Virus record (IMG/VR): IMGVR_UViG_3300032132_000050
Coordinates: 1 to 20,302 of that record
Direction: 5' to 3' (one strand)
DNA length: 20,302 bases
Origin: a virus
The notes beneath the pieces were generated by a model, which did not search any database, was not told where the DNA came from, and saw nothing but the letters and a program-made list of their open reading frames with translations. A program made the translations under genes and the position numbers. Shown piece by piece: positions 3,891-17,920 of this stretch; positions within the stretch are counted from its first letter, which is position 1; the number at the start of each line of letters is the position of its first letter.

Positions 3891-5480
3891 ATGGGATACA
3901 AATTGACCAAAAAGGAAATGGTAAAAGAGATCATAAAATGTGGTAAAGACCCAGTTTATTTTATTAATAATTATGCAAGAATTTCTCACCCCCTAGAAGG
4001 TTTAATTCCATTTAAAACATATGATTATCAAGATGAATTGCTTAGATCGTTTGATGACCATCGATTCACTGTTATTCTTAAAGCCAGACAATTAGGCATC
4101 TCAACAATTACAGCAGCTTATGTTATATGGATGATGCTATTTCATAGAGATAAAAATGTTCTTGTCATGGCAACAAAATACACCACAGCTTCAAACTTAG
4201 TTAAAAAAGTTAAAACCATGTTAAGAAACTTACCAGAGTGGATTCAAATTGCAGAAGTTGAGGTTAATAATAGAAATTCTTTTGAATTAAACAATGGTTC
4301 TCAAATTAAAGCCTCCTCAACCTCTGCAGATGCTGGTCGTTCAGAAGCTCTCTCTTTATTGGTCATTGATGAGGCCGCCCACGTTGAAGGTTTGGAAGAT
4401 TTATGGACAGGCTTATATCCTACTTTGTCAACTGGTGGTCGATGCATTGCGCTTTCTACACCAAACGGTGTTGGAAATTGGTTTCACAAAACCTACATTG
4501 ATGCAGCTGCTGAAAAAAGCAACTTTCACCCGATTAAACTATTGTGGGATGTACATCCAGATCGTGGCGAAGGTTGGTTTGAGCGTGAAACAAGAAATAT
4601 GTCCAGAAGGCAAATCGCTCAAGAACTTGAATGTAATTTTAACGCTTCAGGGGAAACCGTCATACACCCAGACGATATTATGCGCATTGATGAAAATATC
4701 ACACCACCGAAACACAGAACTGGGTTTGATAGAAACTTTTGGATATGGGAAGAATATAATGCAGAAAACACTTATTTATTATCAGCTGATGTTGCACGCG
4801 GAGATGGCCATGATTATTCTGTTTTCCATATTTTTAAACTAGAAACTATGGAAATCATCGCAGAATATCAGGGAAAAGTTACTCCTGATATGTTTTCAGA
4901 AATTGTATTAAGCGCTGGCAAAGAATATGGCAACTGTATGGTAGTTATTGAAAATAATTCCGTTGGCTTCGCAGTTATAGAAAAATTAAAAGAAAAAGAA
5001 TATCCAAACGTTTATCATTCTGTAAAATCAACACATGAATATGTTGACCAATTGACAGCTGAAAATAGATCGGGTACAGTAGCCGGGTTCACTACCTCCC
5101 TTAAAACAAGACCACTTTTAGTTGCTAAATTTGAAGAATTTATAAGGAATAAAATATTAACTATTTATTCTTCAAGAATAAGATCGGAGTTAGACGTATT
5201 CATTTGGAACAATGGCCGACCAGAAGCACAAAGAGGCTATAACGATGACTTAGTTATGGCCTGTGCAATTGGGTGTTGGGTCAGAGATACTGCCATTATT
5301 GAAAATCAAAGGGATGTAGCCTTTAAAAAAGCTATGTTAGGGTCTATAATAAGAAGTGATTCTGTTTTAGATACTAGCATTCCAGGAATGCTTGGTAGGT
5401 CAAAGTCACGTGAATTGGACATAAAAAAAACAGAAGCAGAAAAACAATATGAAAAACATTCATGGTTGTTAAAAGGATGA
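3891..5480 (+). CDS. terL: Large terminase subunit, T4 gp17-like packaging ATPase/nuclease
   Basis: 529 residues. It powers DNA translocation into the prohead through the portal and cuts the concatemer. The ATPase domain has a Walker A region at 62-72 (ILKARQLGIST); the usual GK lysine is absent and K64 precedes the loop, as in the deviant Walker A of lambda-type terminases. Walker B is LLVIDE at 156-161 (D160, E161), and the coupling motif is STP at 189-191. The C-terminal RNase H-like nuclease has D300 (SADVARGDG), E354 (VVIENNSVG) and D452-D453 (GYNDDLVMA). The length is slightly under T4 gp17 (610). The portal gene follows three bases after the stop, the usual packaging pair. Confidence 0.96.
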   Translation: MGYKLTKKEMVKEIIKCGKDPVYFINNYARISHPLEGLIPFKTYDYQDELLRSFDDHRFTVILKARQLGISTITAAYVIWMMLFHRDKNVLVMATKYTTASNLVKKVKTMLRNLPEWIQIAEVEVNNRNSFELNNGSQIKASSTSADAGRSEALSLLVIDEAAHVEGLEDLWTGLYPTLSTGGRCIALSTPNGVGNWFHKTYIDAAAEKSNFHPIKLLWDVHPDRGEGWFERETRNMSRRQIAQELECNFNASGETVIHPDDIMRIDENITPPKHRTGFDRNFWIWEEYNAENTYLLSADVARGDGHDYSVFHIFKLETMEIIAEYQGKVTPDMFSEIVLSAGKEYGNCMVVIENNSVGFAVIEKLKEKEYPNVYHSVKSTHEYVDQLTAENRSGTVAGFTTSLKTRPLLVAKFEEFIRNKILTIYSSRIRSELDVFIWNNGRPEAQRGYNDDLVMACAIGCWVRDTAIIENQRDVAFKKAMLGSIIRSDSVLDTSIPGMLGRSKSRELDIKKTEAEKQYEKHSWLLKG

Positions 5481-5483
5481 TAA

Positions 5484-7505
5484 ATGGCGAATAGAAATAA
5501 AAACCTAAAGGACTCAACTTGGCCCTTATTTAAAAAATTAACTAGATTGTTTTCTGGACCTCTTATCAATTATCGTTCACAGACAACGCGCCAGCTATCT
5601 AGAAGGCGTTTAGACAAATACGGTACTAGATTCAAAGACGTCGCGGGCCAAAAATTTCAAAGATTATCATACAACCCTTTTGATAATTTATCTGCTAACA
5701 TCATGTCGCAGCAAAATCGCACTCAGCGATATGTCGACTTTGACCAGATGGAGTATACACCCGAAATTGCTTCAAGTTTAGACATATATGCAGATGAAAT
5801 GACCACATCAAATGATTTAAGAAAAATGATAACAATTAAATGTTCCAATGAAGAAATCAAAGGTATATTAGAATCATTATATTATAACATTTTAAATATT
5901 GAATTTAATTTATTTGGCTGGTGCCGTACCATGTGTAAATATGGGGACTTTTTCTTATACTTAGATCTTAATCCTGAGATTGGGATTACTAATGTTATTG
6001 GATTACCATCTGCTGAAGTTGAAAGACTGGAAGGTGAAGATAAAACAAACCCTAACTATGTTCAATTTCAATGGAACACTGGTGGAATAACATTTGAAAA
6101 TTGGCAAATATCACATTTTAGAATTCTTGGGAATGACAAATATGCACCGTACGGCACATCTGTGTTGGAGCCAGCTAGAAGAATTTGGCGCCAATTAACA
6201 CTGCTTGAAGACGCAATGATGGCATATCGTATTGTTCGCTCTCCTGAAAGAAGGGTTTTTTATATTGATGTAGGTAACATTAATCCACAAGATGTAGAAC
6301 AATACATGCAAAAAGCTATCACTTCGATGAAAAGAAATCAAGTTGTTGATGCTTCGACTGGTCGAGTTGATTTGCGTTATAATCCAATGAGCATTGATGA
6401 AGATTATTTTATTCCTGTTCGAGGCACAGCCCAGAGCACAAGAGTAGAGGCGCTTCCTGGTGGAACTTATACTGGTGATATTGATGATGTCAAATATTTA
6501 AGAGACAAATTATTTTCAGCATTAAAAGTACCTCAATCTTATCTTTCTCGCGGAGAAGGGGCAGAAGAAGACAAAACTACATTAGCTCAAAAAGATATTA
6601 GGTTTGCTAGAACAGTTCAAAGACTTCAAAGATCCATTATTTCTGAGCTTGAAAAAATTGGAATTGTACATTTATATACATTAGGTTTTAAGAGCGATGA
6701 TTTAGTTTCTTTTACCCTTCACCTTAATAATCCTTCAAAACTTGCAGAATTACAAGAGCTTGAACATTGGAGAATGAAATTTGATACTGCAGGATCTGCA
6801 ACTGAAGGTTATTTTAGTAAAAGATGGGTCTCAGAAAAGTTATTTGGCTTGTCAGATGAACAAATTATTCGCAACCAAAGAGAGATGTTCTATGATAGAA
6901 AATTTGAAACAGCTATGGAAACAGTTGTTCAAGCAGGAATGGCTCAAATGGCTGGCGCAGCAGAATCTGCAGGTGAAGGAATGGGACTACCAGGTCCTGG
7001 AGCAGCAGCACCAGAAGGTGGCGCAGCACCACCAGAAGGTGGAGAAGAATTGCCAGCTGGCACACCTGAAGAAGAAGCAGAAGAGGGCGAAGAAGTTCCA
7101 GGAGAAGAAGGTGGAGAAGGAGAAGAGTCTTCACTTGTAGCAGCACCAGGAAAAAGAGATGAAGAAGATTGGCATAAAACTACAAAAAAAGATGCGTTTG
7201 GCAGACCTGAAGCGACTACCACTTCTAAATCTAAAGGCAAGTGGTATAAACCTGTAACCTACGATACAAGAGACATGGGGGCGCGTAGAAGACATTACAA
7301 AGGACAGTGGGCAGATGAAGTAGGTAGTTCAACTCAAAGAAATCTTTATAAAGGTGCCCTTGAACTATTTGGTTTGGGCAAGCTTTCTGAAGAAAATGAA
7401 ACTAATTATGATGAACAAGAGAGATCGATATTAGAAGTAAATCAGGAAATTAAACATTTAATAGCGGAGTTAGAAATAAACGATGAGAAGAAAAAGACAC
7501 AATAA
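5484..7505 (+). CDS. gp20: Portal protein, T4 gp20-like, with long low-complexity C-terminal extension
   Basis: 673 residues, longer than T4 gp20 (524). It forms the dodecameric ring at the packaging vertex. Signs are the N-terminal YTPEIASSLDIYADEMT, the central RSPERRVFYIDVGN, and the clip/stem region at roughly 313-375 with EALPGGTYTGDIDDVKYLR and LFSALKVPQSYL, the portal signature of this family. From about residue 485 a Gly/Ala/Pro/Glu-rich segment (AAAPEGGAAPPEGGEELPAG) runs to about 555. It is followed by PGKRDEED and a charged tail ending in a coiled-coil-like helix. The extra tail is absent from T4 gp20. It could contact scaffold or internal head proteins, since similar PPEG runs occur in the scaffold gene here. 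Confidence 0.95.
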   Translation: MANRNKNLKDSTWPLFKKLTRLFSGPLINYRSQTTRQLSRRRLDKYGTRFKDVAGQKFQRLSYNPFDNLSANIMSQQNRTQRYVDFDQMEYTPEIASSLDIYADEMTTSNDLRKMITIKCSNEEIKGILESLYYNILNIEFNLFGWCRTMCKYGDFFLYLDLNPEIGITNVIGLPSAEVERLEGEDKTNPNYVQFQWNTGGITFENWQISHFRILGNDKYAPYGTSVLEPARRIWRQLTLLEDAMMAYRIVRSPERRVFYIDVGNINPQDVEQYMQKAITSMKRNQVVDASTGRVDLRYNPMSIDEDYFIPVRGTAQSTRVEALPGGTYTGDIDDVKYLRDKLFSALKVPQSYLSRGEGAEEDKTTLAQKDIRFARTVQRLQRSIISELEKIGIVHLYTLGFKSDDLVSFTLHLNNPSKLAELQELEHWRMKFDTAGSATEGYFSKRWVSEKLFGLSDEQIIRNQREMFYDRKFETAMETVVQAGMAQMAGAAESAGEGMGLPGPGAAAPEGGAAPPEGGEELPAGTPEEEAEEGEEVPGEEGGEGEESSLVAAPGKRDEEDWHKTTKKDAFGRPEATTTSKSKGKWYKPVTYDTRDMGARRRHYKGQWADEVGSSTQRNLYKGALELFGLGKLSEENETNYDEQERSILEVNQEIKHLIAELEINDEKKKTQ

Positions 7506-9746: not shown

Positions 9747-9866
9747 ATGAAAGTTACAAATAAAAAAAAGCTCACAGCTGAATCAAAATCAAAAACACAA
9801 TTTACTAAAATTTCGCCCCGGAATTTTTTATCAGATTTTAAACCTAAAGAGGGAACATGGACCTAA
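9747..9866 (+). CDS. Tiny basic ORF, 39 residues, unknown
   Basis: Starts three bases after the previous stop and ends inside the start of the next gene (10-base overlap with 9857). The product begins MKVTNKKKLTAESKSK and ends in DFKPKEGTWT. It is Lys-rich with no membrane segment. The ribosome site is weak, so translation would depend on coupling to the gene before it. Tight placement between two accepted genes and a frame filling the whole gap support a real gene. The function is unknown. Confidence 0.45.
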   Translation: MKVTNKKKLTAESKSKTQFTKISPRNFLSDFKPKEGTWT

Positions 9867-10186
9867 TATATTTTATTTTAACTGCATACGGTCTAACACA
9901 AATCTTAATCTTTGGTTCAATATTCAATAAGGTACGTCCTTCAAAACAATGGCTAGGTGGCTTTGGAAAATTATTTCATTGCCCTATGTGCATGGGCTTT
10001 TGGGTAGGCGTACTTTTATTCGGAATAAACAAGTGGACGGAACTATTTACATTTGACTATACGTTGGCTAACGCTTTTATATTAGGGTGCCTTAGCTCTG
10101 GAGCTTGTTATCTTTTGGGTGTTTTGGTTAATGATTTTGGTTTTAAAGTGACGTTTAAAAATGAAGGAGATTGTCATCATGACTAA
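9857..10186 (+). CDS. Small multi-pass membrane protein, DUF1360-like
   Basis: 109 residues; AGAGGGA lies just before the start. Hydrophobic segments fall at about 3-22, 47-57 and 70-92. Between the first two is HCPMCMGFWVG (C42, C45), the cysteine-containing signature I associate with the DUF1360 family of small membrane proteins, which also occurs in phages. The C-terminus carries a Cys-His-His-Asp end. The biochemical role of the family is not established as far as I know. It sits between virion genes and the protease gene, and nothing in the sequence suggests it is part of the virion. Confidence 0.7.
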   Translation: MDLIYFILTAYGLTQILIFGSIFNKVRPSKQWLGGFGKLFHCPMCMGFWVGVLLFGINKWTELFTFDYTLANAFILGCLSSGACYLLGVLVNDFGFKVTFKNEGDCHHD

Positions 10187-10280
10187 GAAATGGAAGCTTC
10201 AACCTGTTCGTCGGTGTTGCAGCGGTTCTAAGCTCGTGCGGGTTGCGCCCGCATATTTAAGAGGTAAAATAAATGTCTAA
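10179..10280 (+). CDS. Tiny basic ORF, 33 residues, upstream of the prohead protease
   Basis: A good ribosome site (AAGGAG at about 10164) precedes the ATG at 10179. The frame overlaps both the previous stop and the start of the protease gene at 10273, an arrangement typical of real phage mini-genes. The product is basic, with VRRCCSGSKLVRVAPAYLRG in its middle. A hairpin at 10236-10254 lies within it. The alternative reading is that this is an untranslated leader of the protease gene. No function is recognised. Confidence 0.42.
   Translation: MTKKWKLQPVRRCCSGSKLVRVAPAYLRGKINV
10236..10254 (+). promoter_or_regulatory. Compact GC-rich hairpin just upstream of the protease gene
   Basis: TGCGGG at 10237-10242 pairs with CCCGCA at 10248-10253 around the loop TTGCG; a flanking G-U pair extends the stem to seven. 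There is no U-run after it, so it is not a classic terminator. It ends about 18 bases before the protease start and just before that gene's AAGAGG ribosome site, so it could influence translation or mark an RNA processing point. Confidence 0.35.
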
Positions 10281-10887
10281 AAAAGTACTTTTAAGAGAAT
10301 ATTATGAACTGTGTGAAGGCGGCGTTTGCCAAGATCTTTTAACAGAGGAAGAAAGACGACTTGTAGCAGATGGTACAACAATTCTTTCTGGCATTATGCA
10401 AAAAGCAGATGCTTTAAATGGCAATGGTCGTGTATATCCTCGTAGAGTTTTAGAAAAAGAAATAAAAAATTATCAAAAATTAGTAAACGAAAGAAGAGCT
10501 TTAGGAGAATTAGACCATCCAGATGATTCTGTCATTAATCTTAAAAATGCTTCTCATCTTGTGACTGATGTTTGGTGGGACGGTGAAAATGTTATGGGAA
10601 AAGTACGAGTCTTAAGCACGCCATCCGGTCAAGTGTTGAAGTCTCTTGTAGAAGCAGGTGTAAAACTTGGAATTTCTTCAAGAGGATTAGGTTCAACTCA
10701 AGAAAAAAATGGAAAGACTTATGTTAATGAAGACTTCCAACTTATTTGTTTTGATTTTGTTTCAGAACCTTCAACACCAGGTGCATACATGCTTGGTGAA
10801 GGTGTGGAAAAAAGTTTAAATAATGTTTTTACAAAAGCAGATAGAATTAATCGTTCATTAAATAACATATTAGAAGGTACCGAATGA
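10273..10887 (+). CDS. gp21: Prohead maturation protease, T4 gp21-like
   Basis: 204 residues, close to T4 gp21 (212). It digests the scaffold and trims head proteins before packaging. It has the assemblin-type layout: LNGNGRVYPRRVLEKEI at 48-64, a likely catalytic histidine in RRALGELDHP (H82), a second His in NASH (H95), and the serine motif GISSRGLG (S135/S136), followed by FDFVSEPSTPGAYM. These match the His/Ser pattern of T4-type prohead proteases. The start has AAGAGG upstream. It overlaps the next gene by ATGA. T4 gp21 cleaves after Glu in (L/I)-x-E contexts, and such sites occur in the capsid and scaffold proteins here. Confidence 0.93.
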   Translation: MSKKVLLREYYELCEGGVCQDLLTEEERRLVADGTTILSGIMQKADALNGNGRVYPRRVLEKEIKNYQKLVNERRALGELDHPDDSVINLKNASHLVTDVWWDGENVMGKVRVLSTPSGQVLKSLVEAGVKLGISSRGLGSTQEKNGKTYVNEDFQLICFDFVSEPSTPGAYMLGEGVEKSLNNVFTKADRINRSLNNILEGTE

Positions 10888-11315
10888 AAAAAAGTGATTT
10901 TAAAAGAATTTTAAAACCTTTAATAAAAGAATGTATTAAAGAAGTAATATTTGAAGAAGGTGTTCTCTCCAACGTTATAACGGAGGTTGTTAAAAGTACC
11001 AGAACATTAAATAATGTTCAGTTTGAGACCCAACCAAAACAACAAATAGTTGAATCAGTTAATTCAATTGAACAAAAAAAACTTGCAGAAGAACAATGGA
11101 AAAAAAAGAGAGATCAAAGAAGAAAATTATTAAACGCAGCAGGGTTTGATGATGTTGATATTTTTGAAGGTACAGAACCTTTGCGCACACCTTTAAATGA
11201 AGGCGCGCCACAAGGCCCGCTTTCAAATCTCGAACCAGGTGATTCCGGCGTAGACATTTCCGGAATATTGAATTTAGGTGGTCATAATTGGCAAAAATTG
11301 GCAAGGGGAAAATAA
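10884..11315 (+). CDS. Small unrecognised protein coupled to the prohead protease
   Basis: 143 residues, overlapping the protease by four bases. The N-terminus is a Lys/Ile/Glu helix (MKKSDFKRILKPLIKECIKE), resembling in spacing the LKQ-I-EE helices at 1-195 and 8937. The middle is a charged helix (AEEQWKKKRDQRRKLLNAAG). The C-terminus ends VDISGILNLGGHNWQKLA, which I recall as conserved in related marine phages. It contains the second copy of the 15-base repeat. Position next to the protease suggests a prohead-core or internal head protein. The function is not known. Confidence 0.7.
   Translation: MKKSDFKRILKPLIKECIKEVIFEEGVLSNVITEVVKSTRTLNNVQFETQPKQQIVESVNSIEQKKLAEEQWKKKRDQRRKLLNAAGFDDVDIFEGTEPLRTPLNEGAPQGPLSNLEPGDSGVDISGILNLGGHNWQKLARGK
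11201..11215 (+). repeat. 15-base exact repeat containing GGCGCGCC, copy 2
   Basis: Identical to 9584-9598, again encoding Gly-Ala-Pro-Gln-Gly. The surrounding bases differ, so this is a short shared tract and not a duplicated gene segment. Confidence 0.8.
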
Positions 11316-11549
11316 ATGTCCAAAAGAGCTGTTGTAGTAGAAGTGAGACCAAGAAACGACAATGAATCAATTGAAAAATTAGTTAAAAGATTCACAAAAA
11401 AATGTAAAAAAGAACGAATTGTTGAAAATTATCGGGATAGAATGTATTATGAGAAGCCAAGTAAAAAAAGAAAGAGAAAAAAAGAAAGAAGAAAGAGAGT
11501 TTTACAAAAATTACAAATGAAACTGGATAATAGATTAAACAATAACTAA
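11316..11549 (+). CDS. rpsU: Phage-encoded ribosomal protein bS21
   Basis: 77 residues, against 71 for E. coli bS21. The family pattern is clear: a short beta-strand start (VVVEVRPRNDNESIEKLVKR) matching the bacterial form with NE-(S/P)-(I/F), then RFTKKCKKERI, an Arg-rich turn, MYYEKPSKKRKRKK, and a basic helix to the end. Bacterial bS21 has the same FYEKP(S/T)xKRKR block. bS21 sits on the small subunit near the 3' end of 16S rRNA and helps initiation, so a phage copy could bias ribosomes toward phage messages. Phage-encoded bS21 has been reported in aquatic phages. The gene starts on the base after the previous stop and lies between protease and structural genes, implying late expression. 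Confidence 0.88.
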   Translation: MSKRAVVVEVRPRNDNESIEKLVKRFTKKCKKERIVENYRDRMYYEKPSKKRKRKKERRKRVLQKLQMKLDNRLNNN

Positions 11550-11589: not shown

Positions 11590-12072
11590 ATGGCAATTTA
11601 TAACGGTGCACCAAGTGTAGGTCTTAGGAACGTAGGCTCATATCAAATTTCAGGAGAACCTTGGATATCTGGAAGTGGAGCAGGTTTCGGCACTGCACAT
11701 GCTGGAAATAAAGTTAAAAGATATCAATTTCCTTTTGTCACAAGAGAAGTAACTGTAGATTTTGAACAAGACGGCTCAGGTGGTATGGACTGTGTGTGGG
11801 TGCATTTCGTTAGTGGTAGCGATCATGATTTTAGTGTTGTTGGTGATCTGGTAACAAAAGATGCAACTAGCGATGTTTTTCTTGGAAAACATTTCGTTGT
11901 AGTTAGCGGATCTTTTACTATTAAGGCAAAATTAAAAGAAATTTATGTCACTACACCTGGCGCTAATGCTGCTGAATATCATGTGATAGCAGATTTAACA
12001 AACATTCCGACAAAAAGAATGTATCCACTAACTGGATCAGGCCACACAGATAATCGATCATTTACAGCTTAA
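11590..12072 (+). CDS. Probable small virion structural protein, beta-rich
   Basis: 160 residues; GGAG lies nine bases before the ATG. It opens with MAIYNGAPSVGLRNVGSYQI and continues with alternating hydrophobic and polar strands (KHFVVVSGSFTIKAKLKEIY) that suggest a beta-sandwich. I recall similar openings in structural proteins of marine phages, but did not verify this. The downstream neighbours are fibre genes, so a head decoration or appendage-base role is plausible. There is no signal peptide or enzymatic motif. Confidence 0.7.
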   Translation: MAIYNGAPSVGLRNVGSYQISGEPWISGSGAGFGTAHAGNKVKRYQFPFVTREVTVDFEQDGSGGMDCVWVHFVSGSDHDFSVVGDLVTKDATSDVFLGKHFVVVSGSFTIKAKLKEIYVTTPGANAAEYHVIADLTNIPTKRMYPLTGSGHTDNRSFTA

Positions 12073-12087
12073 TAAAACAGAGGATTT

Positions 12088-12567
12088 ATGGCCCAGGTAG
12101 TAAAACCTAGAGGAAAATTTGGTGGAGCAATAAAATTTGGTGATGACGTCACAGACGTACATCAAATAACAGGCAGTCTTTATATTTCCGGAACTCTCCA
12201 TGCAAATGCATATAAAGTAGATGCTGTAACAACCACAATAACAAACATTGAACAACAGGGCTCCACAAAATTTGGTGATTCTACAGATGACACTCATGAA
12301 TTCACTGGCAGTTTTTATATAAAGGGTGCCACTAAAATAAATGGCAATCTTGCTCCTTCTGCCGATGAAACAAAAGATTTAGGAGCAACTGATGCACGTT
12401 GGGCAAACGTGCATGCACAAAACATCCACACAGGGGACCTTCACTTAACAAACGAGCGTGGAAGTTGGTCTGTTATTGAGGAAAAAGATTACCTTTCAAT
12501 AAGAAATAATAATACTGGACAGTTTTATAAAATCATGATGATACCAGTGCCTGACCCTGAAAATTAA
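12088..12567 (+). CDS. Short fibre protein with tandem repeat and shared C-terminal module
   Basis: 159 residues; GAGG just before the start. Two tandem repeats: IKFGDDVTDVHQITGSLYIS at 15-34 and TKFGDSTDDTHEFTGSFYIK at 60-79. Residues 88-151 (DLGATDARWANVHAQNIHTG, DLHLTNERGSWSVIEEKDYL) form a module repeated at the C-terminus of the next gene, and end in RNNNTGQFYKIMM. Beta-repeat fibres with such a terminal module are typical of phage appendages, where the end often trimerises or attaches. The protein may be a short partner, attachment piece or reduced paralogue of the long fibre downstream. Confidence 0.78.
   Translation: MAQVVKPRGKFGGAIKFGDDVTDVHQITGSLYISGTLHANAYKVDAVTTTITNIEQQGSTKFGDSTDDTHEFTGSFYIKGATKINGNLAPSADETKDLGATDARWANVHAQNIHTGDLHLTNERGSWSVIEEKDYLSIRNNNTGQFYKIMMIPVPDPEN
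12349..12540 (+). repeat. Fibre C-terminal module, copy 1
   Basis: Encodes residues 88-151 of the short fibre protein. It aligns without gaps to 14172-14357 downstream apart from the outer edges; the shared core reads GDLHL-(T/E)-NERGSWSVIEEKD. Retention of the module in two adjacent genes indicates duplication or recombination of fibre ends. Confidence 0.8.
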
Positions 12568-12607
12568 ATTTTTTTATCTTACTTTATTACACTTAAACAG
12601 GAAAATG

Positions 12608-12622
12608 ACTATTTATAAGTGA
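12608..12622 (+). promoter_or_regulatory. Candidate late promoter before the large fibre gene
   Basis: ACTATTTATAAGTGA lies in a 101-base gap, 61 bases before the fibre start. Nearly the same string (ACTATTTATAATGA) stands at 18018 in the gap after the capsid gene, 63 bases before its gene. The conserved TTATAA-(G)TGA core would be the -10 element; there is no clear -35, as expected of phage late promoters that use their own sigma factor. No experiment supports it. Confidence 0.38.
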
Positions 12623-12668
12623 CCAAAATATGGTTGGGCTTATATATTTATAAAGGGGAACATGAATA

Positions 12669-14411
12669 ATGTCTGGTGCGTGGAAATTTAACAATTCTCA
12701 AATTAAACTGACAGGTACGATGTACTTGTCTCAAAGTGCTTATATTAACTGGGGTGATTCAGTTACAGGGTCAAGTGGTTTCGGCTTCCGATCCGACGAC
12801 GGTGACATGGAATTCAAAAACCATGGCGGCTCTTGGACTGCCTTTGGTTCTGCTACTGCAATTGCAGCCGACGACATTACAGTAGGTAATGCTGCAGTAA
12901 CTCTTGGCAATGGTTCTACCAGTGCCGATATTACAATAGATTCCGGCGCCGACATTGTTTTTGATGCTGCAGGCGGCAACTTTGAATTTAAAGATAGCGG
13001 CACGGCGATGTTTGTCATTGATGTAGATGGCACTGCTGGCGACATTGATGTAACTTTACAGGTTGATGGTGATGACTTAGTTTTTAATCAGTATGATGGT
13101 ACCGAGGTACTCAGGTTAACTGATGGAGGCCAGGTTGAAATCGGAGACAACCTTGAGATGCCAACGGATAGTTCTGTGATTAAAATGGGCGATGGCGACG
13201 ATATCACAATTACTCACGATGGAACAACTGGTGTTGTCATAGCTGCTAACCCAATCACTTTTGATTCTGGTGCAGATATTAATATTGACGCAGAAGGCGG
13301 CGATGTTGTTTTTAAAGATGGTGGCGTAACAAAAGGCTCCCTCAAAATGGATACTGCAAATCGCTTTCAACTATCTTCAAGTGTTTCTACAAACGATCTC
13401 TATTTGATGTCCGGACGAGATATTGTACTTGATGCTGATGGTGCTGAAATTTATTTCAAAGATGGTGGCACCACCTTTGCTACTTTTGGTAGCGGGGGAG
13501 ACACCGAACTCGCTTCTGCTGTTTCAGCAAAACCCGTACTTATTCTTGAGAATACCAATAACGACGCTACCGGAGCCACCTTAAAGTTTAATAAAGATGG
13601 TGGTAATGTTGCTGATAATGATGTAATTGGTAACATCGATTGGGCCAGTGAAGATGATGGCGACAATGCTCACACTTATGCAAGAATCCTTGGTAAAGTA
13701 GATGACATGACAGGTGGCCAAGAAGAAGGTAGTCTTGAGTTTTATGTAGCTGAATATGATGGTACCTTAACTAAAGGTATGGATATCGTAGGTTTAGGTT
13801 CGAATGGCAATATTACAGTAGACATAAGCACACATGATGGCTCCGCCGGTGGATTAAAACTTGGTGGCACCCTTGTTACTTCAGACGCAGGCGAGCTTAA
13901 CATATTGGATGGCTGCACCGCAGTTGTTGGAGAACTTAATTATTTGGACTTAGGTAGTACTGCTGTTGGTACTGCAATTGCCAGTAAAGCTGTTGTACTT
14001 GATAGTAGCAAAGACTTTAACTTTGGCACTGGCGATGTAAGTTGTACTTTGTTGTCAGGTACGGTTGGTTCTTTGGTTTCTCTTAAAGTATATTCAACAA
14101 TCGGCCATCCCGAAGATACAGACCTGCTTACTCTTGCAAGCGGAGAGGTGACATTGGCTGGTGATATGCATCCAGCCGCTGATAACACTCATGCTCTAGG
14201 TGATTCCGATTTAAAATGGTCTGCAGTATATGCACAAAACGTGTACACTGGTGACCTTCACTTGGAAAACGAGAGGGGCAGCTGGTCTGTGATAGAGGAA
14301 AAAGATTTCCTTACATTAAGAAATAATAATTCTGGTAAACGTTTTAAATTAACAATGGAAGACATCACTGATAATGGCTCGTATGGACCAGGGAAGGACG
14401 GAATATTATAA
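12669..14411 (+). CDS. Large repetitive fibre protein
   Basis: 580 residues. The N-terminus (MSGAWKFNNSQIKLTGTMYL) echoes the GTL/GTM strands of the other fibres. The shaft has Asp/Gly-rich beta repeats: SGADIVFDAAGGNFEFKDSG at 92-111, SGADINIDAEGGDVVFKDGG at 200-219 and SGRDIVLDADGAEIYFKDGG at 248-267. Residues 404-428 hold SDAGELNILDG and ELNYLD, a repeat type common in phage tail and head fibres. Residues 502-563 are the shared C-terminal module. AAAGGGG precedes two ATGs; the second (12669) gives the long frame. A terminator follows. No S74 endosialidase-type chaperone is seen. It probably forms a trimeric appendage. Confidence 0.83.
   Translation: MSGAWKFNNSQIKLTGTMYLSQSAYINWGDSVTGSSGFGFRSDDGDMEFKNHGGSWTAFGSATAIAADDITVGNAAVTLGNGSTSADITIDSGADIVFDAAGGNFEFKDSGTAMFVIDVDGTAGDIDVTLQVDGDDLVFNQYDGTEVLRLTDGGQVEIGDNLEMPTDSSVIKMGDGDDITITHDGTTGVVIAANPITFDSGADINIDAEGGDVVFKDGGVTKGSLKMDTANRFQLSSSVSTNDLYLMSGRDIVLDADGAEIYFKDGGTTFATFGSGGDTELASAVSAKPVLILENTNNDATGATLKFNKDGGNVADNDVIGNIDWASEDDGDNAHTYARILGKVDDMTGGQEEGSLEFYVAEYDGTLTKGMDIVGLGSNGNITVDISTHDGSAGGLKLGGTLVTSDAGELNILDGCTAVVGELNYLDLGSTAVGTAIASKAVVLDSSKDFNFGTGDVSCTLLSGTVGSLVSLKVYSTIGHPEDTDLLTLASGEVTLAGDMHPAADNTHALGDSDLKWSAVYAQNVYTGDLHLENERGSWSVIEEKDFLTLRNNNSGKRFKLTMEDITDNGSYGPGKDGIL
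14172..14357 (+). repeat. Fibre C-terminal module, copy 2
   Basis: Encodes residues 502-563 of the large fibre. Key shared residues with copy 1 are the Trp of (R/K)W, AQN-(I/V)-(H/Y)-TGDLHL, NERGSWSVIEEKD and RNNN-(T/S)-G. After it the large fibre adds about 17 residues that the short fibre lacks. Confidence 0.8.
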
Positions 14412-14434: not shown

Positions 14435-14466
14435 GTGAGCCGATGATGTCATTGGTTCGCTTTTCT
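14435..14466 (+). terminator. Rho-independent terminator after the large fibre gene
   Basis: A stem of about 10-11 pairs (GTGAGCCGATG pairing with CATTGGTTCGC, including three G-U pairs) with a small loop, ending at 14460 and followed by TTTTCT. It starts 24 bases after the fibre stop and separates the fibre genes from the scaffold/capsid unit. Confidence 0.72.
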
Positions 14467-14530: not shown

Positions 14531-16015
14531 ATGTCATCAAGCATGTTAGAACAAGCAATCATAGACGCAGAGGCATTAAAAGAGGCTGCTATTAAAAATG
14601 CTGAAGCTACCGTTGTTGAAAAATATTCAGCAGATATCAAAAAAGCAGTAGAGCAATTATTAGAACAAGCCCCGGCAGAAGACCCTGCAGCAGCTATGGC
14701 TGCAATGATGGGAGGCGCCCCGCCAGAAGGCGCAATGGGCATGCCACCCGAAGGTGCAGCCCCACCTGGAGGTGAAAATCTTGCATCTCAACTAGACCCT
14801 TCATATGTTGGCGAACAAGCCCGCACAGTTAATGTTAATTTGGGCGCCCTTTTAGATGAAATGAAAATGGATGAAGAATTAGATCCAGATGATTTAGCGC
14901 TTCACGAATTGGTTGCAGAAGAAGTAACTGGCGAAGGAGAAGCTTCCACGAGAGAGACTGAAGAAACCGTTGTAATTCAAGAATCTCTTCTTGATTCTAT
15001 TTTAGGAGAACAAATTGAAGAGCCGCCTCCGCTGCCAACAGGAGATCGAGGCGGATATCCACCACAGCCACCTGTAGGGGCTATGCCAGGTGCACCTACA
15101 CCAATAACAAGAGAGTTTCTTGAAGAAGATGAAGATTTATACGAAGGCAACGACGAAGACCTAGATCTATATGAAGAAGATGAGCAAAATTACACCCCTG
15201 ATTATGAGCGTCACAGCCGCCCCACTGGAGTCGTTCCGGACACCGAGCGTGTAGGTCTTTTAAACCCAGACGCAAATTACACTCCTGGCGTTGGGGAATA
15301 TATTAACATAGGTGGTGATCCACAATATGCATCAGATGATCCTTTTGCCGTGCCCACCAGACCTGGTTATGATGAGCCGATTGAGAGATCGTACCCAGAA
15401 CAATCACACCTGCCCATGGAACAAGGGGAACAAATGCGCCGAGAGGCAGAAGATCGCAGGAACTGGTACACAAAGGCCCGTCTTGGGCTAGGTCCAGCTG
15501 CCTACGATGATCCCCATGGGTATCGCATTGAGGAAAGCTTCCAAAAGGAGTTGGCGTCATACCAACACAATTATGCAAAACTTTATGAAGCATATCAAGC
15601 TTATGGGCAAGAATATGATAATCTTTATGCCCATCATGAACAATTAACTGAACAAAATAATAAATTTAGAGAAGTGCTCGTTGAGTCACAAAATAGACTT
15701 AATGAAGTAAATCTCCGTAATGCACAATTGCATTACACAAACCGTATTTTAACTAGCGACTCCCTGAATGAGCGACAAAAAAATAAAATTGTTGAAGCTG
15801 TGTCAAAATCCGGTACTGTTGAAGAGGCAAAAACAATTTTTGAAACCCTTCAAAGTGCAGTGGCTGGTACAAGCAATAATAAGCAAGCACCAAAATCGCT
15901 GAACGAAGTAATCAATAAGCGCTCTTCGGCCTTTTTACCTCGAAGAAAAGAGGAAACGCAGTCTGATTCAAATTATATGGACAGATTGCAAAGATTAGCT
16001 GGTATTAAACAATAA
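14531..16015 (+). CDS. gp22: Scaffold / prohead core protein, T4 gp22-like, enlarged
   Basis: 494 residues, nearly twice T4 gp22 (269). It forms the inner core on which the capsid assembles and is digested afterwards. The conserved part is the C-terminal third: helices from about 338, LNEVNLRNAQLHYTNRILTS at 390-409, SLNERQKNKIVEAV, VEEAKTIFETLQSAV, and a terminal MDRLQRLAGI. This pattern is usual in gp22-type scaffolds. The N-terminus is Ala/Glu-rich helix, then a Met/Gly/Pro run (GGAPPEGAMGMPPEGAAPPG at 61-80). Residues 165-335 are a Pro/Tyr/Asp-rich insert with no scaffold-like helix. Many L-x-E sites are available to the protease. The capsid gene follows by 27 bases. Confidence 0.86.
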   Translation: MSSSMLEQAIIDAEALKEAAIKNAEATVVEKYSADIKKAVEQLLEQAPAEDPAAAMAAMMGGAPPEGAMGMPPEGAAPPGGENLASQLDPSYVGEQARTVNVNLGALLDEMKMDEELDPDDLALHELVAEEVTGEGEASTRETEETVVIQESLLDSILGEQIEEPPPLPTGDRGGYPPQPPVGAMPGAPTPITREFLEEDEDLYEGNDEDLDLYEEDEQNYTPDYERHSRPTGVVPDTERVGLLNPDANYTPGVGEYINIGGDPQYASDDPFAVPTRPGYDEPIERSYPEQSHLPMEQGEQMRREAEDRRNWYTKARLGLGPAAYDDPHGYRIEESFQKELASYQHNYAKLYEAYQAYGQEYDNLYAHHEQLTEQNNKFREVLVESQNRLNEVNLRNAQLHYTNRILTSDSLNERQKNKIVEAVSKSGTVEEAKTIFETLQSAVAGTSNNKQAPKSLNEVINKRSSAFLPRRKEETQSDSNYMDRLQRLAGIKQ

Positions 16016-16026
16016 TATACTATATT

Positions 16027-16033
16027 AAGGAGG
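16027..16033 (+). promoter_or_regulatory. Strong ribosome-binding site of the major capsid gene
   Basis: AAGGAGG, nine bases before the ATG at 16043, is the most complete Shine-Dalgarno sequence in the window. This fits the very high protein demand for capsid subunits. Confidence 0.8.
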
Positions 16034-16042
16034 AAAAATTAT

Positions 16043-17920
16043 ATGTCTGTATTACAAAAGCTAACTGAAGGCTTAGTTGACCGCAATCTTCGTAATGAGG
16101 GTAACGCTCTTTTGAGTAAGTGGGACAAAACTGGTCTCCTTGAAGGTTTGAATGGAAAAAACCGTGAAGGGATGGCCCGCCTTTTAGAAAATCAAGCTAA
16201 AGAGCTGCTTCGTGAAGCTAGCTCAATGGCTGCTGGAGATGTAGAGGGTTTTGCAGCCGTCGCATTTCCAATCGTTCGCCGTGTATTCGGTGGATTAATT
16301 GCTAACGATCTTGTTAGCGTACAACCGATGAGTCTCCCATCAGGACTGATCTTTTTCATGGACTTTACCTATGAAGGTGATAGACACGGCATTGGCTCCG
16401 GTGACTCTGTTTATGGTGGTGGAGTAGTCGCATCAGCGTTGACTGGTGGTGTTTCAGACCTCACTGAGGAAGGTGGAGGCTTTTACAACTTAGCAAATGC
16501 GTATTCTTCTCCTTCTGGTACTATTGGTCCATTTACTGATTCAGCAGATGCAGATCCAGCAAGTACATCACAAAGTGAAGTTAATAACCCAACAGCTGTA
16601 ACTGGTACGCCTTTTAACAATGCTGGTACAGCGCTTTCATCTTTGAGTGAAGCTCAAAAGAAATGCATTCGGTGGGATCCTGACATTCTTGGTGATTCAA
16701 CTACAACCAAGGAAGTTTTTGCAATCCAATTTAAGCTTACAGATGCTATGCGTGATAAAGTTAATTTTCAGCAATTAGGCGCCGTCACGCCAGTTGCTAA
16801 TGTAACTAGCGCTACTGAGCTTGGTGTTGGTCTTGCATCTGGTTCGTTGGTACGCCGCTTAACCGAGCGCGGGTACCGCGATGCCAATGGTGCTCTTAGG
16901 ACTGTTGGTAATACTACAGATCCGGACGCTGGTAACTACATTACTTGTTATTACTTTGCAGCTGCAGGTACTCTTCTTGTAGACGGTGATGGTACTGCTG
17001 CACTTGGTGCAGCTCTTAGTGTGCCTCTTAAAGATTCTTTTGCAGCAGGTGATGCTATTGGATCTGTCGTAGGACAAGATAACTGGGGACTTGAAGAACC
17101 ATCTCCCGGAACTCGTGGTAACGCTGGCAGCACAACTGGTAAAAATGCGATTCCTGAAATCGACATTAAAGTTGATAGTGTTGCAGTGACAGCAGTTACT
17201 AAAAAGCTCAAAGCTAAATGGACTCCGGAACTTGGTCAAGATCTTAATGCATATCATAATCTTGATGCAGAAGTTGAACTTACATCAGTTCTTTCTGAGC
17301 ATATTGCTTTGGAAATTGATCGTGAGATTCTCAATGACCTTGTTAAGGATGCAGCTGCTGGTACGTATTACTGGTCGCGTTCGCCTGGTCTCTTTGTACA
17401 TCGTACAAAGGGCACCGAGCTTGGTGCAACCGCAGCCGCTCCGGATTTCACCGGAACGGTATCTGAGTGGTACGAAACTCTTGTAGAAACCATCAATGAT
17501 GTTTCTGCACAGATTCATCGTAAGACTCTTCGCGGCGGAGCTACGTTCCTTGTGACTAGCCCTGAGATTGCTAATATTCTTGAGTTTACGAGTGGATTCC
17601 GTGCTAATGTAACCCATGATGATGATCGTGGTACTGTTGGCGCTGTAAAAGCTGGTAATCTTAGCAAGAAATGGGATCTTTATGTAGATCCATATTTCGC
17701 GCGCAATCTTGTTTTGGTTGGCCGTAAAGGTGGTAGTTTCTTGGAGAGTGGCTATGTCTACGCTCCTTATGTACCGCTGCAGGTTACTCCCACTATCTTT
17801 GGTACGGAAGACTTCGTACCGCGTAAAGGCGTTATGACCCGTTATGCTAAGAAGATGGTTCGACCTGATATGTATGGTCTGGTTGTTGTACGCGGACTCC
17901 TTGGTGAGTCTGGTAGCTAA
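16043..17920 (+). CDS. gp23: Major capsid protein, T4 gp23-like
   Basis: 625 residues, about 100 more than T4 gp23 (521). The N-terminal propeptide holds ARLLENQAKELLREASS; the family has the matching ENQ-K helix, and LRE|A (E58|A59) fits the L-x-E consensus of the gp21 protease. The mature chain opens with FPIVRRVFGGLIANDLVSVQ followed by PMSLPSG, the HK97-fold signature shared with T4 (VRRAIPNLIAFDICGVQPM). The C-terminal half has LNAYHNLDAEVELTSVLSEH, EIDREILNDL, and an end typical of the family (YGLVVVRGLLGESG). A Gly/Ala/Thr-rich segment at about 120-200 may be a surface insertion. A strong terminator follows. Confidence 0.95.
   Translation: MSVLQKLTEGLVDRNLRNEGNALLSKWDKTGLLEGLNGKNREGMARLLENQAKELLREASSMAAGDVEGFAAVAFPIVRRVFGGLIANDLVSVQPMSLPSGLIFFMDFTYEGDRHGIGSGDSVYGGGVVASALTGGVSDLTEEGGGFYNLANAYSSPSGTIGPFTDSADADPASTSQSEVNNPTAVTGTPFNNAGTALSSLSEAQKKCIRWDPDILGDSTTTKEVFAIQFKLTDAMRDKVNFQQLGAVTPVANVTSATELGVGLASGSLVRRLTERGYRDANGALRTVGNTTDPDAGNYITCYYFAAAGTLLVDGDGTAALGAALSVPLKDSFAAGDAIGSVVGQDNWGLEEPSPGTRGNAGSTTGKNAIPEIDIKVDSVAVTAVTKKLKAKWTPELGQDLNAYHNLDAEVELTSVLSEHIALEIDREILNDLVKDAAAGTYYWSRSPGLFVHRTKGTELGATAAAPDFTGTVSEWYETLVETINDVSAQIHRKTLRGGATFLVTSPEIANILEFTSGFRANVTHDDDRGTVGAVKAGNLSKKWDLYVDPYFARNLVLVGRKGGSFLESGYVYAPYVPLQVTPTIFGTEDFVPRKGVMTRYAKKMVRPDMYGLVVVRGLLGESGS

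Follow-up and report, generated by a model that had tools for sequence, protein, structure and literature searches.

Ribosomal protein bS21 is a core member of the head-gene cluster in a Shine–Dalgarno-using lineage of T4-like phages

More than 1000 virus contigs encoding ribosomal protein bS21, mostly aquatic, have been reported (Mizuno et al. 2019; PMC6375957). In the same study, the bS21 of Pelagibacter phage HTVC008M was incorporated into E. coli ribosomes, and with it the GFP output of purified E. coli ribosomes fell to ca. 5%. Late-expressed phage bS21 genes that neighbour those for terminase, portal, protease and capsid were described by Chen et al. (2022; PMC9723584), who found a prohead protease gene close to bS21 in 310 of 900 genomes from published work. 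They proposed that late replacement of host bS21 leads to preferential translation of phage messages, reported co-expression of bS21 and structural genes without a single operon, and also raised the packaging of bS21 in the virion. In Bacteroidia, bS21 hides the anti-Shine–Dalgarno (anti-SD) sequence (McNutt et al. 2023; Chen et al. 2022), and bS21 paralogues in Francisella, an SD-using bacterium whose alternative bS21 is cellular and not phage-borne, change, through translation, how much of particular proteins is made (PMC9578407). Our literature search on virion bS21 or marine bS21 phages returned only Mizuno et al. (2019), Chen et al. (2022) and a brief mention in the COBRA paper. The presence of a phage bS21 among head genes, its late timing and its proposed steering of ribosomes, all put forward in the initial annotation of the present locus, were already published (Chen et al. 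2022).

The stretch of DNA analysed here (the window) is a complete virus record of 20,302 bases. As in the lake phages of Chen et al. (2022), its bS21 gene is clustered with genes for the terminase large subunit (TerL), portal, prohead protease and capsid. In the lake phages, however, bS21 lies on the reverse strand, whereas in the window it is co-oriented with its neighbours; moreover, the lake phages have Bacteroidetes hosts and keep the aromatic residue that stacks on the anti-SD, whereas the window uses SD sites and has Arg at this residue. The SD-using phage Mel-JY01 (PP395634, annotated RpsU) carries bS21 in the same slot and on the same strand as the window, in the order protease, one gene, bS21, scaffold and capsid. 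Its bS21 is distant from that of the window (phmmer E 2.3e-5) and falls outside the clade of the window's relatives in the tree described below, and the SD of its capsid gene is ordinary (−6.4 kcal/mol). HTVC008M, a marine T4-like phage, likewise encodes a bS21, but the gene is located between CobS and Hsp20, near sliding clamp/replication genes and not in the head cluster. Flavobacterium phage immuto (MW353176), which by capsid and terminase is one of the nearest named relatives and has the same gene order as the window, lacks both bS21 and SD sites, whereas the window has both.

The bS21 gene and its neighbours

The plus strand of the window carries, in order, genes for terminase and portal, several unassigned genes, a gp21-type protease gene and g14; after bS21 come fibre-like genes, then the putative scaffold gene and the gene for the gp23-type capsid protein. 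The features are as follows.

3891–5480, plus strand: terminase large subunit (PHROG 2, 6.6e-59)
5484–7505, plus strand: portal protein (PHROG 213, 2.5e-76)
10273–10887, plus strand: gp21-type prohead protease (PF03420 Peptidase_S77, E 7.8e-36; PHROG 207, 6.4e-57)
10884–11315, plus strand: g14, a 143-aa gene directly 5′ of bS21 (no Pfam match)
11303–11308, plus strand: AAGGGG, the SD-like site of bS21, in the 3′ end of g14 (−7.4 kcal/mol against the anti-SD)
11316–11549, plus strand: bS21 gene (77 aa, ATG start; PF01165, TIGR00030, PDB bS21 chains)
11590–12072, plus strand: g16, a 160-aa gene after bS21 (no Pfam or PHROG match)
12088–12567, plus strand: g17, a fibre-like protein (weak PHROG tail-fibre matches, best 4.4e-4)
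14435–14460, plus strand: terminator-like hairpin, 11-bp stem followed by a T-run (from a consensus scan only)
14531–16015, plus strand: putative scaffold gene at the gp22 position (from its place before the capsid gene; no family match)
16027–16033, plus strand: AAGGAGG site before the capsid gene (−11.1 kcal/mol, the strongest in the window)
16043–17920, plus strand: gp23-type major capsid protein (PF07068 Gp23, 8.1e-73)

The initial annotation had placed a 77-residue bS21 at 11316–11549; its coordinates and length were exact, and the ORF was confirmed as a real bS21 gene. In the profile search that it had suggested, both bS21 families scored above their curated cut-offs, namely Pfam PF01165 (E 3.9e-14, 52.5 bits; cut-off 27) and the NCBIfam S21p equivalog TIGR00030 (E 2.6e-13, 49.6 bits; cut-off 28.95). 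PHROG 21469 ('ribosomal protein S21') matched at 1e-9, and the best 36 of 37 matches in a PDB sequence search were bS21 chains (top E 7.4e-7). The RF-KK and YEKPS-K elements of the bS21 motif were invariant in 12 relatives. An AlphaFold model showed two helices (pLDDT 80). A Foldseek search with this model gave no significant match (best E 0.57); small-subunit ribosome entries came first in the list and made up 12 of its 13 non-significant entries, with chain labels corresponding to bS21 or bS21m.

The T4-like head module is present in T4 order (TerL, portal, S77 protease, scaffold and gp23 capsid), whereas tail genes 18 and 19, located between TerL and portal in T4, are absent there in the window. 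On the T4 map (17-18-19-20-67-68-21-22-23), bS21, g14 and the fibre-like genes lie between the window's equivalents of genes 21 and 22. Head genes flank bS21 within ten genes: the protease gene is the second one upstream, those for portal and TerL lie further in the same direction, and the major capsid protein gene is downstream. The putative scaffold weakly matched the same-position ORF in immuto, LR756508 and Mel-JY01, and a counterpart of g16 is frequent 3′ of bS21 in relatives. Neither tRNAs nor RNA families were found in the window.

It had been claimed that bS21 sits with no gap between a protease-linked gene and structural genes. This holds upstream, where the TAA of g14 (11313–11315) is followed at the next base by the bS21 ATG (11316), but not downstream, where 40 nt separate bS21 from the next ATG. 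The protease-linked gene is g14, an unassigned ORF whose start overlaps the stop of the PF03420 prohead protease gene. Because the bS21 ATG abuts the g14 stop and its SD site lies within g14, the two genes are likely co-translated. The layout also suggests that bS21 belongs to an operon; the hairpin at 14435–14460 lies 3′ of the bS21 stretch and ahead of the scaffold and capsid genes, so that bS21 and the capsid gene are not necessarily co-transcribed.

As the slot corresponds in T4 to the junction of two head genes, 21 and 22, late expression of bS21 is a reasonable expectation from gene order. The claim that bS21 is made late is thus favoured by this slot and by the relatives of Chen et al. 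(2022), in which it is co-expressed with structural genes, and for the present phage we infer it from these. Sites resembling the T4-type late promoter (TATAAATA-like) were not above chance (51 versus 42 expected). The additional claim that the timing speaks against early takeover could not be concluded, since Chen et al. (2022) raise virion packaging and the HTVC008M bS21 lies outside the head cluster.

Several other features of the window and its relatives were observed. The interval after bS21 (11590–14411 in the window, and the same interval in the related loci L116–L188) is a variable block of ca. 1 to 9 kb that extends from bS21 to the scaffold and often holds fibre-like or unassigned genes. 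A 407-aa protein encoded 5′ of the terminase gene (1064–2287) matched PHROG 10356, a virion structural protein (2.7e-20), and could, as a guess, be laminin-G-like. Two overlapping small genes at the edge of the head cluster (173–1038) are a possible lysis pair: weak Rz-like spanin matches (4.4e-5) were obtained for the first, and the start of the second resembles a signal peptide.

Conservation and descent of the head-cluster bS21

A scan based on bS21 found 29 relatives. As a control for recruitment bias, 80 loci were recruited by the capsid protein alone; in all 17 of those spanning protease to capsid, bS21 lay between the two on the same strand, and in 16 of these it directly followed g14. 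Recruitment by the protease alone gave bS21 downstream in 57 of 80 loci, always on the same strand and directly after g14 in 54 of the 57; the capsid- and protease-recruited samples overlap in some contigs and include near-duplicates, and these counts are not independent. Among the 23 protease-recruited loci without bS21, 11 had < 600 bases downstream, another 11 broke off ahead of g14 or where it ends, and the last was locus L380. Furthermore, five large relatives carry one bS21 each, and the same interval holds bS21 in the cultured Microcystis phage Mel-JY01 (RpsU) and in the 484-kb LR756508. The bS21 gene, which had been described as lying inside the head-gene cluster, is with its presence in 17/17 capsid-recruited spanning loci a fixed member and a core feature of this cluster in the lineage. 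In L380, a very diverged basic ORF after g14 (ca. 6040–6380) showed a faint bS21 resemblance and no Pfam match, and may possibly represent a replacement or decay of bS21.

The bS21 gene is under purifying selection, with a median dN/dS of 0.11 (dS near saturation), and its distances track those of portal (Spearman 0.77) and g12 (0.84). The closest distance correlation with bS21 (0.84) was that of a DUF1360-like membrane protein (9857–10186), slightly below the family cut-off, which precedes the protease in nearly all relatives.

In a tree with ca. 60 cellular bS21s, a sample that lacks several marine phyla, the bS21s of the clade formed one group with a modest support of only 80, apart from those of Pseudomonadota, Bacteroidota, Chlorobi, Planctomycetota and Bdellovibrionota. 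On the simplest reading of these sequences, the group would represent an old phage-owned bS21 lineage and not a recent host capture. Locus L031 (PBOB01000007.1, 24 kb), which was binned as Acidiferrobacteraceae, is a phage of the lineage carrying protease, g14, bS21, scaffold and capsid genes; its bS21 is therefore not cellular.

Shine–Dalgarno use and the host

Upstream of 23 window genes, pairing with the anti-SD averaged −6.8 kcal/mol, with 70% of the values at ≤ −6, compared with a mean of −2.5 kcal/mol at random positions. The mean SD energy was −5.5 kcal/mol for the genes of Mel-JY01 and −0.5 kcal/mol (7% at ≤ −6) for those of immuto. Because the window genes and Mel-JY01 carry SD pairing, unlike immuto, the host very probably reads SD sites. 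Since a broad T4-like lineage that uses SD sites has the head-cluster bS21 among its core genes, published models based on Bacteroidetes ribosomes cannot be the whole story.

Naming a host from bS21 was rejected because the phage proteins fell outside every sampled phylum in the tree. A contig scan, also rejected as a pointer to the host, gave mainly Chlorobi, an effect of its motif patterns, as well as a mis-binned phage contig. In a check for a cyanobacterial host, no psbA-family gene was found in 11 related records, which are fragments. A tblastn search of bS21 against named phages returned no match at E 0.01; this blank means little because the bS21s carried by Mel-JY01, LR756508 and HTVC008M were missed.

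The strong AAGGAGG-type site before the capsid gene highlighted in the initial annotation is present (16027–16033, −11.1 kcal/mol), as are the weaker sites it noted before other genes (terL, −3.8 kcal/mol, and others). Across the clade, the capsid gene had a median of −11.4 kcal/mol, and 82 of 91 loci (including L111–L190) carried AAGGAGG, AAGGAG or AGGAGG; the medians were −8.4 kcal/mol for the neck gene, −5.9 for bS21 and −0.3 for terL. The capsid genes of 11 T4-like controls from other hosts, without bS21 between protease and capsid, had a median of −4.0 and a strongest value of −7.1 kcal/mol, a comparison in which the clade amounts to about one evolutionary event and the hosts differ. The capsid-gene values were weaker in other bS21 phages (HTVC008M, −8.2; Mel-JY01, −6.4; LR756508, −3.0), and a link between capsid SD and bS21 is therefore not general. 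Thus, we regard the near-perfect SD of the capsid message across the clade as a new lead, not as evidence for steering. The grading of SD sites was set aside as support for steering, since protein demand explains it equally well.

Proposed role and alternative explanations

Our best explanation, to which we give a probability of roughly 0.6 as a whole, is that the ORF, a genuine bS21, would be functional and phage-owned, of old descent and made late, and would enter the 30S subunit and favour phage messages. The protein would be translated with its upstream neighbour g14 in the late, virion-building phase and would most likely enter the small subunit by replacing the loosely held host bS21. 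It would then sit beside the anti-SD end of the 16S rRNA, and initiation could be kept on, or shifted to, phage messages at the stage of heavy demand for capsid protein. The identity, position, conservation and purifying selection of bS21 and the use of SD sites by the phage are established here, while ribosome incorporation and message preference in this phage are suggested by analogy with the described systems. The analogy also provides a point against this explanation: the effect of HTVC008M bS21 in E. coli suggests that translation does not necessarily gain from the replacement, at any rate when the ribosome is foreign. The chance-level count of late-promoter sites, the hairpin between bS21 and the capsid gene and the modest tree support for a single phage group also weigh against it.

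The phage might instead secure the supply of bS21 without steering, if infection shuts down host synthesis and the phage replenishes a labile, exchangeable protein with no preference among messages, keeping ribosomes competent. bS21 is indeed loosely bound and exchangeable (Mizuno et al. 2019; PMC6375957), the phage uses ordinary SD sites as in an SD-using bacterium, and the grading of the sites, strongest for capsid and weakest for terminase, could mirror protein demand. However, pure supply would not need divergence, whereas the phage bS21 has diverged as its own group from the sampled cellular bS21s; we consider this explanation rather unlikely, though worth serious attention.

A more specific reading, which we regard as doubtful and as having only a small chance of being right, is that the resident bS21 and the near-perfect capsid SD have co-evolved, so that ribosomes carrying the phage bS21 would prefer phage leaders with an extended SD. 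Such a specialised ribosome would work through SD pairing, unlike the anti-SD-hiding case in Bacteroidia. Because a phage bS21 occurs here together with a capsid message bearing an extended SD, the idea lends itself to in vitro tests with components from E. coli.

Less probable again is a role in the head or virion, either as a basic protein in prohead assembly or as a virion-packed protein that is delivered as infection begins. The near-invariable place of the gene between the protease and scaffold genes would suit this role, and encapsidation was raised as a possibility by Chen et al. (2022; PMC9723584), but the bS21 motif is retained, over both bS21 cut-offs, and the related phage immuto makes the same kind of head without bS21. 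Hiding of the anti-SD as in Bacteroidia, by which bS21 would block SD pairing and favour SD-less phage messages, is very improbable: the published bS21 phages infect Bacteroidetes, and the capsid and terminase proteins of the window have those of Flavobacterium phage immuto among their nearest of all named phages, but the window genes bear SD sites (mean −6.8 kcal/mol, 70% at ≤ −6) in contrast to those of immuto (−0.5 kcal/mol, 7%), and the position of F. johnsoniae Tyr54 is occupied by Arg61 in the window, an aromatic residue being present there in just 1 of the 41 clade members.
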